In this document: positions 9,382 through 13,381 of the stretch, in pieces
Layout: each line of letters begins with the position of its first letter
Position numbering within the stretch: the first letter of the stretch is position 1
NCBI GenBank assembly: GCA_021732415.1
Contig: JAKFVC010000035.1
Span: 1 to 61,869 of the forward strand
Direction: 5' to 3'
From: Planctomycetaceae bacterium
Lineage (GTDB): Bacteria > Planctomycetota > Planctomycetia > Planctomycetales > Planctomycetaceae
DNA length: 61,869 bases
Made by a program: the position numbers and the translations under genes
Notes under the pieces: generated by a model
Database searches by the model: none
What the model saw: the letters and a program-made list of their open reading frames with translations, nothing else
Told to the model about the DNA's origin: nothing

Positions 9382-9740
9382 AACGTGGGGCGTAAATCAT
9401 TGCATTGCAGTGACTAACGGCGAGTCCACAGAGATTCGACAGCGGCCATTCGCGGAAGCTGAGTGATGCCGAAACTCACCATGTTGCGGGAGCAATGGCA
9501 TCATGAGGCGAGAAGGCCACGTTGAGATGTCGGGAATAACTCGATGAGGTTGTGTGCCCCGTTCGAGGGCGCACATGAGACCGCGAAATATTCCCGCATT
9601 GCGAGTTGCGAATAGGATCAGGGGAATCCGGACTCGTGGCGCCCAATGCGGGATGATGCCCAAGGATTCACAATTTGGTGTCGGTGAGCGGATCTGAGAA
9701 AATGAACCGCTATGCCGCAATTGTGGATCCGGGCCAGATC
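9382..9740. other. Unassigned stretch upstream of the pilin-like gene
   Basis: No ORF with plausible protein character. A hairpin-prone spot near 9550 (GTGTGCCCC...GGGCGCAC) is visible. I cannot assign a function. Confidence 0.4.
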
Positions 9741-9744
9741 ACGT

Positions 9745-9885
9745 CTTCGCATTTATCCCGGAGGGATTAAAGAGAGTAGCCGGTGGTTGAGCGCAGCGAC
9801 ACCACCGGAAAGCGTTCAACGATGGAATCTCGACCCTGAAGGGGTCGCAGAACCGATGCTCTGCGACCCCCTCTGAGGTCTGAGA
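9745..9885. repeat. CCCGGAGGG / CCGGTGGT / GACCCTGAAGGGGTC repeat block
   Basis: A run of short palindromes: CCCGGAGGGA, then CCGGTGGTTGAGCGCAGCG... closed by CCACCGG, then GACCCTGAAGGGGTCGCAGA pairing with TCTGCGACCCC. From memory, similar words occur as dispersed intergenic repeats in planctomycete genomes. There is no coding content. Confidence 0.55.
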
Positions 9886-9925
9886 TGACATGATCAATCG
9901 CCAAAGAGAGTGGACAATAGTTTAA

Positions 9926-10645
9926 AGGGATCAAAGAAGTCGAAGGTGATCAAAGAAGTCGAAGGGTTCAAAGAAGTCGCGGCGCAACATCCCAAGCTAG
10001 GTGAGCCCGGCGGCGTCAGCCCCGGGTAGAGTAGCGACGTGGTTCCGTGGTAAATCGTCTACCTATTGAAGATCCCTGGTGCAGCAAAGCGAGTCGCCAC
10101 CCTACCCCCGGCCTCACGGCACGGGGCTCACCTAGGGCTTTAATCGCTCGATGTGCTCAAAGAAGTCGAAGAAGTCGAAGAAGGCGAAGAGTTCAAAGGG
10201 ATCAAAGAAGTCGAAGGGATCAAAGAAGTCGAAGGGATCAAAGAAGTCGCGGCGCAACACCCCAAGCTAGGTGAGCCCGGCGGCGTCAGCCAAATGGTAC
10301 TGACTTTGTGACTTGGCCAATCAGCCGGTACGCGTTAGCGTCCGGTTCTTTGGAAATATGAGTCGATTGTGGCCCGAACCGTGGGCTAACGCCCAACGGC
10401 TGATTTGTCGAACAGCCAAAGCGAGTGCCATTTGGCGTCAGTCCCGGGGTAGAGTAGCGACGTGGTTCCGTGGTAAATCGTCTATCTGTTGAAGATCGCT
10501 GGTACAGCAAAGCGAGTCGCCACCCCAACCCCGGCCTCACGGCACGGGGCTCACCTGGGGTTTTAGGCGCTCGATGTGCTCAAAGAAGTCAAAGAAGGTG
10601 AAGAGTTCAAAGGGATCAAAGAAGTTCAAAGGGAACACCCGAATT
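9926..10645. repeat. Purine-rich tandem repeats (about 18-nt GGGATCAAAGAAGTCGAA unit) with duplicated hairpin module
   Basis: Arrays of GATCAAAGAAGTCGAAG-type units occur at about 9926-9975, 10152-10250 and 10576-10640. Between them lies a roughly 190-nt module, present twice (from about 9976 and from about 10250), that opens with AGGTGAGCCCGGCGGCGTC and closes with its near-complement ...CACGGGGCTCACCT. The second module is interrupted by a 146-bp element (10290-10435). Both + strand frames through the arrays are repetitive (Lys/Ser or Ile/Lys/Glu/Val), but no start, RBS or conserved flank supports a gene. Confidence 0.75.
10290..10435. mobile_element. 146-bp MITE-like insertion with TIRs and 6-bp target duplication
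   Basis: The ends are CCAAATGGTACT (10290-10301) and AGTGCCATTTGG (10424-10435), 11 of 12 complementary, and complementarity continues imperfectly for about 58 nt per arm. CGTCAG flanks it on both sides (10284-10289 and 10436-10441). The sister module about 270 nt upstream carries the same flank uninterrupted (GGCGGCGTCAGCCCCGGG), an empty-site comparison within one window. There is no ORF; a transposase would have to act in trans. Confidence 0.7.
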
Positions 10646-10655
10646 TACGCGGGCC

Positions 10656-10952
10656 TGTAGGATGGCCGCCCCGGCCGTCGAGTGCCTGACTTTCGACGAG
10701 CGATTTTGCAAAGACTTCAAAGCGCGCCCAATCGCGCCGAGCTGTTTGGTTTGGCACTCTAGGGCTGGTAGTGTTCGATCGTCGAACGCAGACGGCCGGG
10801 GCGGCCATCCTACGGCTGCTTCGCTATCGACCAGCAATTGTCCAAAGAATTCAAAGATCGCAGGTCAATTCGCGCGGAGATGGTTGGTTGGGCACTCTGG
10901 CTTGGTTGGTGTGTGAGAGTCGAATGCAGACGGCCGGGGCGGCCATCCTACG
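10656..10952. repeat. Three copies of the GACGGCCGGGGCGGCC repeat
   Basis: One copy is inverted (10656-10679) and two are direct (10788-10815, 10926-10952); all carry TGTAGGATGGCCGCCCCGG or its complement. The two direct copies share another 40 nt or so of diverged upstream sequence. Gene-free. Confidence 0.65.
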
Positions 10953-11245
10953 GTTCCTAAGGCTACCTTGTTAACTTCCCCTTGACCGTTTTGGCGACTC
11001 CGCTTATCGTTCTGACACTTTCCCGAAGTCCAATCGAATATTGTCTCGGTCTGCGTCCTGACGTTTGACGTCCTGTCAACGTTTGTGGTCCGAGATCTCC
11101 ATCCCTGCTGCTTGCCCTACTACCCGCCATTTTCCAACGGACGTCCACTCGGCCGCTGGTTTCGCGTTGCATTTTATTCCAGACACTGATCATCGCCGGT
11201 CGGCCTCAGCGGCTGCGGCTTGATCTTGTTGGAGAAGCTTGCTGT
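10953..11245. other. Leader region of the FlgI-like gene
   Basis: About 290 nt without repeats or a convincing ORF, presumably containing the promoter of the gene at 11246. No clear sigma-70 pair was identified. Confidence 0.4.
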
Positions 11246-13381
11246 ATGCGTCTATCCCTGAAAATCAATACCGTATTGTGCTGCCTGGGTCTCATGGCCT
11301 TGGGTGGCTGCATGGAATTGAATCTGTTCCGATTCCAGAACGCGGAGAAAGACCGCGATGCGGATGAGGACAACAAGGACCGTCGCAAAGAGACGGAATT
11401 TGTCGGTAATTACGCCGCGATCTCGGGCAACAACGTGATCGCCATTCACGGTGTCGGCCTGGTGACAGGCTTGAATAACACGGGTGAAGACCCGCCGCCG
11501 TCGATTTATCGCACGCAGCTCGAAGACGACATGAAGAAGCGTGGTGTCACGAATTATCGCGAACAGTTGCAGTCGACTTCGACGGCCCTGGTCCTGTTGA
11601 CGGCTTACCTGCCGGCAGACATTCAGAAGGGCCACAGTTTCGATGTGGAAGTCCGGTTGCCTCCCAATACGGAAGCCACGAGTCTCGAGGGTGGCTGGTT
11701 GTTGCCAGCTGATATGACCGAACAGGCCAACGTTCAAGGCCAGGGGACTCTCAAGGGCAAGATCTTCGGCAAGGCCGCGGGGCCCATTCTGGTCTCGATT
11801 GCCAAGGGCGAAAATCAGGAAGGCGTGCTGAAGCGTGGTCGTATTCTCGGCGGCGGTATCGGCTATAAGGATCGAACCCTGGGACTCTATTTGCGCAGCG
11901 ATTTCCGCAGCGTTCGTAACACGAGCCGTATTGCGGACCGCATTGGGACTCGTTTCCATTTCTACGATCACGGTCAGAAGAAATCGCTCGCAGAAGCGAA
12001 GGACGACCAATACGTGCAGTTGAAGGTCCACCCGCGCTACAAAGACAACTACCCGCGCTACATGCAGGTGATTCGACACGTGGCGTTCCGTGAGAACGAT
12101 ATCCAGCGTCGCGACCGCATGGAGCGACTGCAGGAAGATCTGGTCGACCCCGATCGGGCCGCCAAGGCTGCGATTCAGTACGAAGCGATCGGTACCGAGT
12201 CGATCCTGTTCTTGAAAAAGGCTCTCAATAATCCGAGTGCCGAAGTCCGGTTTTATTCTGCAGAGGCCCTGGCCTATCTGGGTGACGACACGGGCGCCGA
12301 AGAGTTGGCGAAATTGGCCAAAGACGAACCCGCCTTCCGCGTGTACTGCGTGGCGGCATTGTCGGCTTTGGACGAAGCGGTGTGCTTCCAGTTGCTCAAA
12401 GACTTGATGGACGAGACCAGTGCGGAAACCAAGTACGGAGCCTTCCGTGCGTTGTGGACTTTGGATAAGAACGACCCCTACATTCGCGGCAGAAAGCTAA
12501 ACGACCACTTCATGCTGCACGTCGTCGATTCCAAGGGTGATCCGATGATTCACCTGACTCGGCATCGTCGGCCGGAAGTGGTGCTGTTTGGAGCCAATCA
12601 GAAATTTCGGACGCCGCTGGCTTTGACCGCGGGTAGCCATATTAATGTGAATTCCCAGGCGGGTGCCGAATCGGTCACGTTGACTCGATTTGCGCTTGGC
12701 CAGCCCGATCAACGCAAGATCGTATCGACCAAGGTCGTGGACGTCATCGAAGCGGCCGCCGAGATGGGGGCCACTTATCCTGACGTCGCCCAGATGCTGG
12801 CCCAAGCGTCGGCTCAATACAATGTGGAAGGCCGCCTGGAACTCGACGCCCTGCCGCAGGCCGGACGGTTGTATTATCGTACCGTGACGGATGGTGATAA
12901 GGATTCCAAGAAATCAACCAAGGTGGGCCGGCCATCTTCGAATCCGAATCTCTTCCCCGTGTTGAATCCGCTGGGTGAGGCGCCTGAAGACAGCGATGAA
13001 GTGGAATTGCCGATCGAGGGCGGAGAGCCTGACCCTGCGTCAGACGCCGGCGCGGCCAGCTTGACCGACATCAGCAAAGATTCCAAGGCACCGTCTCAAG
13101 CCGATTCGTCCAAGGGTAAGAAAGCGGAAGCCGAAGATCTGCCTCCCAGCCAGGCCAAGTCGAAATCGTGGTTTGGTTGGTTCGGCAAATCTAAGTCCGA
13201 TGAAGCAGAGGAAGAATTGCCAGCGGCGACATCATCCGATGACGAACAGCCCAAGGCCGAGAAATCCAGCACCGAAAAACCTCGTTCGCGAGGCAAGAAG
13301 AGTGATACCGCTGAGAGCGAACCCACTGACGAGAAACTGCCTCCTGCTGAAGGATCCACCAGTAAGTTCGAGATCGAATAG
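11246..13381 (+). CDS. FlgI-like (P-ring) lipoprotein with HEAT repeats
   Basis: 711 aa. The lipobox LGGC (Cys22) marks a lipoprotein. Residues about 50-290 match the flagellar P-ring protein FlgI: GVGLVTGLNNTGEDP near 69-83, then VLLTAYLPADIQKGHSFDVE and the SLEGGWLL strand. About 300-415 are HEAT-like helical repeats (NNPSAEVRFYSAEALAYLGD). A further domain follows to about 545, then a charged Ser/Lys/Glu tail (550-711) of low complexity. FlgI proper is about 360 aa, Sec-exported and not a lipoprotein, so this is a distinct, roughly doubled architecture. No flagellar genes flank it. It probably sits in the envelope as a ring or scaffold protein; flagellar use is uncertain. GGAG about 13 nt upstream supports the start. 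Confidence 0.75.
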   Translation: MRLSLKINTVLCCLGLMALGGCMELNLFRFQNAEKDRDADEDNKDRRKETEFVGNYAAISGNNVIAIHGVGLVTGLNNTGEDPPPSIYRTQLEDDMKKRGVTNYREQLQSTSTALVLLTAYLPADIQKGHSFDVEVRLPPNTEATSLEGGWLLPADMTEQANVQGQGTLKGKIFGKAAGPILVSIAKGENQEGVLKRGRILGGGIGYKDRTLGLYLRSDFRSVRNTSRIADRIGTRFHFYDHGQKKSLAEAKDDQYVQLKVHPRYKDNYPRYMQVIRHVAFRENDIQRRDRMERLQEDLVDPDRAAKAAIQYEAIGTESILFLKKALNNPSAEVRFYSAEALAYLGDDTGAEELAKLAKDEPAFRVYCVAALSALDEAVCFQLLKDLMDETSAETKYGAFRALWTLDKNDPYIRGRKLNDHFMLHVVDSKGDPMIHLTRHRRPEVVLFGANQKFRTPLALTAGSHINVNSQAGAESVTLTRFALGQPDQRKIVSTKVVDVIEAAAEMGATYPDVAQMLAQASAQYNVEGRLELDALPQAGRLYYRTVTDGDKDSKKSTKVGRPSSNPNLFPVLNPLGEAPEDSDEVELPIEGGEPDPASDAGAASLTDISKDSKAPSQADSSKGKKAEAEDLPPSQAKSKSWFGWFGKSKSDEAEEELPAATSSDDEQPKAEKSSTEKPRSRGKKSDTAESEPTDEKLPPAEGSTSKFEIE

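Follow-up and report, generated by a model that had tools for sequence, protein, structure and literature searches.

Why does one of two neighbouring palindromic modules carry a long hairpin that the other lacks, and which enzyme might have moved it? This question was raised by a locus in the window, the whole stretch of 61,869 nucleotides analysed here (Planctomycetaceae bacterium, contig JAKFVC010000035.1).

The interrupted module and its element

An uninterrupted palindromic host module, AGGTGAGCC...GGCTCACCT, is located at positions 9999-10133 of the window with an empty target at 10012-10021, and the same host module with an insertion is located at 10269-10556 (neither these features nor those below are assigned to a strand). 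Upon alignment of the two modules, the insert plus one copy of the target was the sole large difference between them: with its flanks joined, the second module measures 136 nt against 135 nt of the first, the two being distinguished by one gap and a few substitutions. The alignment confirmed what had been claimed in a reading based on the sequence only, that the sister module about 270 nt upstream keeps the empty target. The inverted ends and the flanking CGTCAG described in that sequence-only reading are likewise present in the window, the apparent ends being CCAAATGGTACT at 10290-10301 and AGTGCCATTTGG at 10424-10435, with CGTCAG at 10284-10289 and 10436-10441 on either side of the insertion. 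The predicted fold of the insertion at 10290-10435 is one long hairpin from base 1 to base 146 with 52 base pairs (folding z of -7.0 for RNA and -5.0 for DNA; an equal value in none of 200 shuffles in both cases). The earlier statement that the entire element folds is therefore upheld, while the arms, said to be complementary for about 58 nt, pair with interruptions. An Rfam scan of 9700-11250 gave nothing at E <= 0.1.

When the boundaries are set by a ten-base target duplication (see below), the mobile hairpin element covers 10292-10433 (142 bp, ends AAATGGTACT...AGTGCCATTT), preceded by the left target copy GGCGTCAGCC at 10282-10291 and followed by the right copy GGCGTCAGTC at 10434-10443, which carries one substitution relative to GGCGTCAGCC. 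The element sits centrally in the target motif within the palindromic repeat module. Its inner core hairpin, AATCAGCC...GGCTGATT at 10319-10404 (about 86 bp), is also found without the outer arms.

Downstream of the modules lies a gene with the FlgI domain (PF02119), and its counterpart in a related MAG (RYN_439, locus L074) is 90% identical in the best segment. At this orthologous locus three such modules are present, all three of them uninterrupted. Across the module region of a second relative (L075), no alignment was obtained. A second filled and empty pair was found elsewhere, locus L007 being flanked on both sides by CGTTAG and the module at L050 being empty with CGTTAG.

In the own genome, one end of the palindromic modules was detected at 251 sites and the control at one, and together with the window modules at 9999-10133 and 10269-10556 these sites make up a large palindromic module family with ends AGGYGAGCCSGGYGGCGTMAGCC. 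In a subset inspected by eye, the AGGYGAGCCSGGYGGCGTMAGCC-ended modules form many inverted pairs with different interiors and without evident target duplication. Repeated GGATGGCCGCCCCGGCCGTC segments at 10660-10960 represent a further palindromic repeat adjoining the array, and the CAAAGAAGTCGAAGGG tract at 9900-10260 resembles, by unaligned comparison, the repeats with which the AAA_25 genes L004, L005 and L006 end at the 3' side and which encode KEFKEVEG-like tails.

With the 146-base insertion as a query against the own genome, an assembly of 9.87 Mb in 350 contigs, at least 46 rows of matches at no fewer than 40 places were obtained, as counted from the 40 candidates scored out of 138. 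Nine copies are of full length, and 13 pairs of ends were recognised once diverged or longer arms were allowed; many rows cover the core and one arm, or the core alone. Copies in the congener G072 show 88-95% identity to the window element. In another congener, G030, five of the five scored matches were limited to the core (approximately query 27-115, 90-92% identity), indicating that cores lacking the arms can occur. Both other copies and a presence/absence difference, on which the sequence-only reading had made its claim of a mobile element depend, were thus found, the latter in all three modules of the related MAG.

The ends are spread far more widely. When one mismatch was allowed, AAAGYGAGTRCCATTTGG was matched in 29 of 170 genomes of the family (the reversed-pattern control in four of 170, with one match each), and a slightly wider end pattern gave 169 sites in a single genome, G129. 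Among 397 genomes of the class, 20 contain exact matches to the ends, and exact AAAGTGAGTGCCATTGGG gave no match in IMG/VR. The interiors between the common ends differ: besides the window core and another hairpin with GGCGCTAGCC, several more were seen. Among 80 end pairs, GGCNNNNGCC was exact in at least one flank in 66, counting the outer CC/GG, and by eye this target often lies inside another palindromic repeat. Being short (142 bp), multi-copy and devoid of a transposase gene, with terminal inverted repeats, a target duplication and empty sites, the window element has the properties of a MITE.

Length of the target duplication

The insertion had been proposed to generate a duplication of 6 bp. 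When the hexamers adjoining the apparent ends were compared, 27 of 59 pairs matched exactly (the 59 pairs being 78 rows minus 19 with more than two end mismatches or overlapping pairs), while 10,000 rounds of permutation of the right flanks gave 8.0 exact matches on average and 18 at maximum. A total of 80 end pairs, 70 short and 10 IS-sized, were then scored base by base; this set leaves out 11 named AAA_25 loci and overlapping pairs, and L407 is absent from it as well, most likely because its sequence was first encountered in one of the omitted loci, so that the in-gene insertion is uncounted. A 10-bp duplication (at least 8 of 10 bases) was observed for 56 pairs, 26 of them perfect (eight being IS copies), and an 11-bp duplication for three. 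The other 21 pairs showed no direct duplication: nine have inverted flanks (GGCGTCAGCC...GGCTGACGCC) and 12 have neither arrangement. The nine inverted-flank pairs (for instance L261, L273 and L018) look as if the element had replaced the tip of a host hairpin.

The two readings differ in the outermost letters. Outer dinucleotides departing from GG/CC were found 16 times, five of them recurring on the side of the element (L235, L302 twice, L384 and L416) and 11 not; six further departures sit only on the inner side. Among the 11 unrepeated departures five read TC, and at these loci (L001, L232, L243, L285 and L415) a left CC always stands against a right TC at position 9 of ten. At L384, one of the IS copies in genome G346 described below, the duplicated target ends with GG instead of CC on both sides, while the seven sister copies have CC behind the left hexamer, and the outer letters must therefore belong to the target. 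If six bases were duplicated and the ends were fixed, few repeats would be expected by chance, and the five repeated departures are read as true duplication. The unrepeated ones must then be explained by later mutation, which is supported at L001 because CC stands at this place in module 1 as well as in each of the three L074 modules. The repeated departures, taken together with the published ends and repeat length of IS4 elements, favour an element of 142 bp (10292-10433) with a duplication that is probably 10 bp and not 6, for which the base-level evidence is good, not unanimous. The six-base reading was dropped on this balance (IS4 ends and length, and five of the 16 outer departures repeated against 11 not). 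From the original proposal, insertion and duplication are retained, while the length is most likely 10, sometimes 11, the outermost CC/GG being part of the target.

A candidate partner in the IS4 family

The sequence-only reading had pointed to a transposase with matching terminal repeats. An IS with closely similar terminal repeats was found in other planctomycetes, and none that is close in the own assembly. Genome G346 contains eight copies of a 1,487-bp IS4-family element, each with an ORF of 462 aa; the eight exact end matches in this genome are one end each of the eight copies. All eight have a perfect 10/10 duplication, of which the targets start with GGC. The ends of the window element agree with these IS ends at 15 and 16 of 18 bases. 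The ORF scored 150.2 bits against the IS4 model of NCBIfam (NF033592, cut-off 115) and 37.5 bits against PF01609 (cut-off 23). Its best plasmid match, with 39% identity, is a protein annotated as IS4 family transposase on plasmid pSINAC01 of Singulisphaera acidiphila (NC_019893.1), where the IS (L418) carries the ends with one mismatch each and an 11/11 duplication. Locus L418, with nearly the same ends, belongs to another order of planctomycetes.

As described in PMC2266710, members of the IS4 family have a single ORF with the arrangement D(60-110)D(100-150)E and Y(2)R(3)E(6)K. The spacings of the catalytic residues and YREK motifs lie within these ranges for both transposases (D139-D219-E327 and YWKRNDIEVDIRNIK in G346; D134-D214-E319 and YGQRQNIETDLRDLK in Singulisphaera). 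For the IS4 subgroup, Table 1 of the same paper gives ends of the form -AATR--------WTW, a size of 1400-1650, repeats of 10-13 bp and YREK. The G346 element, with ends CAATGGCACTCACTTT, agrees in ends, size, repeats and YREK if the outer CC/GG is assigned to the target, and by its ends, motif and NCBIfam score it would fit the IS4 subgroup.

Among 22 further distinct homologous loci, taken from a longer list of matches, an end (up to three mismatches) was present in the fetched stretch at 10 of the 11 with at least 39% identity, and at none of the 11 with 34% identity or less, where one match with four mismatches was seen; several of the ten end-bearing loci are broken or located at contig ends. 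In the own assembly, a protein search gave no close transposase, the single match being of 30% identity without the ends, and the hunt for a parent element in this genome yielded 31 end-like places, nine loci of which were read by eye around the match. The autonomous elements with common ends are thus the G346 IS and the Singulisphaera IS. An IS present in several copies may have escaped assembly, in the gaps between the 350 contigs, or may have been lost, and the genus presumably once had the transposase. The link between MITE and IS consists of the ends (16-18 bp), the target and the duplication, with no longer homology.

Several other candidates were set aside. None of the DDE_Tnp_1 loci in six genomes (30 of 48 listed matches) was bounded by these ends. 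A perfect end at L341/L309 in G083 turned out to belong to a different DDE insertion sequence, with ends TTGGACAGCGCCACTTTT, that interrupts one of the MITEs; it occupies approximately 8036-9705 of L309 (G083:C47) and runs to the contig end. In 40 stretches taken from G129, G083 and G113, the long end pairs were judged to be spurious, one end having six mismatches.

Considering these lines altogether, the window feature is very probably a non-autonomous MITE mobilised by a transposase of the IS4 lineage that prefers GGCNNNNGCC in REP-like palindromes; we infer that this mobilisation takes place in trans. A DDE transposase of the G346-type IS4 lineage would bind both ends of the element in trans, with a preference for GGCNNNNGCC, a motif belonging to the REP-like repeats in these genomes. 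The ends would be joined to opposite target strands about one helical turn (10 bp) apart, and repair of the gaps would produce the target duplication; the mobilisation would be of the cut-and-paste type, as PMC2266710 states for the IS4 family. Because each duplicated copy is GGCNNNNGCC again, the target would be regenerated on both sides and elements would come to nest in palindromes. The interior is seemingly free to vary, which would explain the unrelated hairpins between the same ends.

Other mechanisms were considered against the same data. A REPIN, in which a Y1 (RAYT) transposase would mobilise an inverted REP pair in single-stranded form and leave no target duplication, is improbable. 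The inner core does resemble a pair of short hairpins in inverted orientation and is also found by itself, and 13 Y1 transposase matches are present in the own genome; however, the element was near none of the 13 Y1 loci at E <= 1e-3, a looser motif scan within 1.5 kb of the Y1 genes gave one weak arm match at one of the 13, and the full element duplicates its target and has its ends in common with an IS4-type DDE element. For the full element a REPIN is thus unlikely, while the core alone could be moved by RAYT. We consider it quite improbable that recombination or template switching among palindromes, instead of transposition, gave rise to module 2: similar palindromes are abundant in the genome (251 sites of one module end), and the inverted flanks of 9 of the 80 end pairs would be expected if a host hairpin tip had been exchanged, but direct duplications tracking the local target were found in 59 of the 80 pairs, far above permutation, and the same duplication is made by an IS whose ends are closely similar and whose transposase looks intact. 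Least probable of all is integration of a circular form by a tyrosine recombinase at a 6-bp core (CNNNNG) with GG/CC arms, since, even though the target resembles a short palindromic core site, the 6-bp count fits and 11 of the 16 departures outside the six bases are unrepeated, the flanks usually equal each other and vary by site with neither staying with the element, repeats were seen for five departures beyond the 6 bp, and the partner found is a DDE transposase.

Insertion in AAA_25 genes and relation to known systems

The element was also found in frame within protein genes, in four paralogs of the own genome (one of them cut by a contig end) and in one gene of G072. The carriers are L003, L004, L005, L006 and L407 (G072:C10), the insertion being common to G000 and G072; three of three element-carrying genes scanned contain the Pfam AAA_25 domain, while paralogs such as L214 and L203, and L195 of G030, are without the element. 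In the G072 gene, the seven bases adjoining the ends match at all seven positions, and GGCATGCAGCC stands on both sides when the outer letters are included. The addition amounts to 142 + 11 = 153 bases, or 51 codons, at a site that by eye is a linker varying among paralogs. Eight non-genic copies were read in the gene orientation, and a ninth on the opposite strand; of the eight, the window copy is open in the frame of the gene, and stops interrupt each of the three frames in the other seven. Because the window copy is itself open in that frame, selection cannot be deduced from an open frame, and pN/pS on the in-gene copies gave too few changes for the element-coded peptide. These carriers represent one in-frame insertion event in one gene family, the AAA_25 paralogs, and the other two-ended copies of the own genome that were examined sit in repeats.

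A broader proposal, somewhat less likely than not, is that an IS4-type lineage of planctomycetes has become specialised on palindromes, with MITEs as interchangeable carriers of REP-like hairpins: the regenerated GGCNNNNGCC would lead to nested mosaic hairpins, and occasional in-frame entry into a gene would turn a hairpin into protein.

IS elements that target REP sequences (including those of the IS4 family), MITEs and in-frame palindromic elements are each already known; the titles and abstract openings listed for open-licence PMC papers gave no description of this planctomycete element family. Bacteria contain short palindromic repeats in abundance, and certain classes of them have no known enzyme that moves them, as stated in PMC3733652. 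One class is here tied to one transposase family, and since the link by ends, target and duplication leads to a transposase with open copies, it can be tested at the bench. Regeneration of the target would provide a simple route to nested palindromes.

A close likeness is with ISRm22 of Sinorhizobium meliloti, an IS4-family element whose insertions lie on the symmetry axis of REP palindromes (PMC1525189), as an attack on REP-like palindromes by an IS4-type transposase is the most likely origin of the window insertion. According to its description, ISRm22 makes six-base direct repeats with GC pairs at the repeat ends, which are imperfect in three of nine copies; recombination between copies or adjacent deletions were invoked by the authors (PMC1525189). 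ISRm22 differs in being a full IS of another subgroup, placed in IS4Sa (PMC2266710), and its description in PMC1525189 includes no MITEs. REPINs and tagged REPs, described as REP dimers inside longer palindromes (PMC3116915, PMC3733652), are similarly short hairpin repeats of high copy number, but the window element has the ends of a DDE element and a target duplication, with no Y1 gene association found at 13 loci. Finally, a palindrome of about 150 bp inserted in frame in a protein gene is described for the Rickettsia palindromic elements (PMC10969869). The in-frame insertion is alike in the two systems, with one event in one gene family here, and the AAA_25 case represents a palindromic hairpin kept as coding sequence outside Rickettsia.
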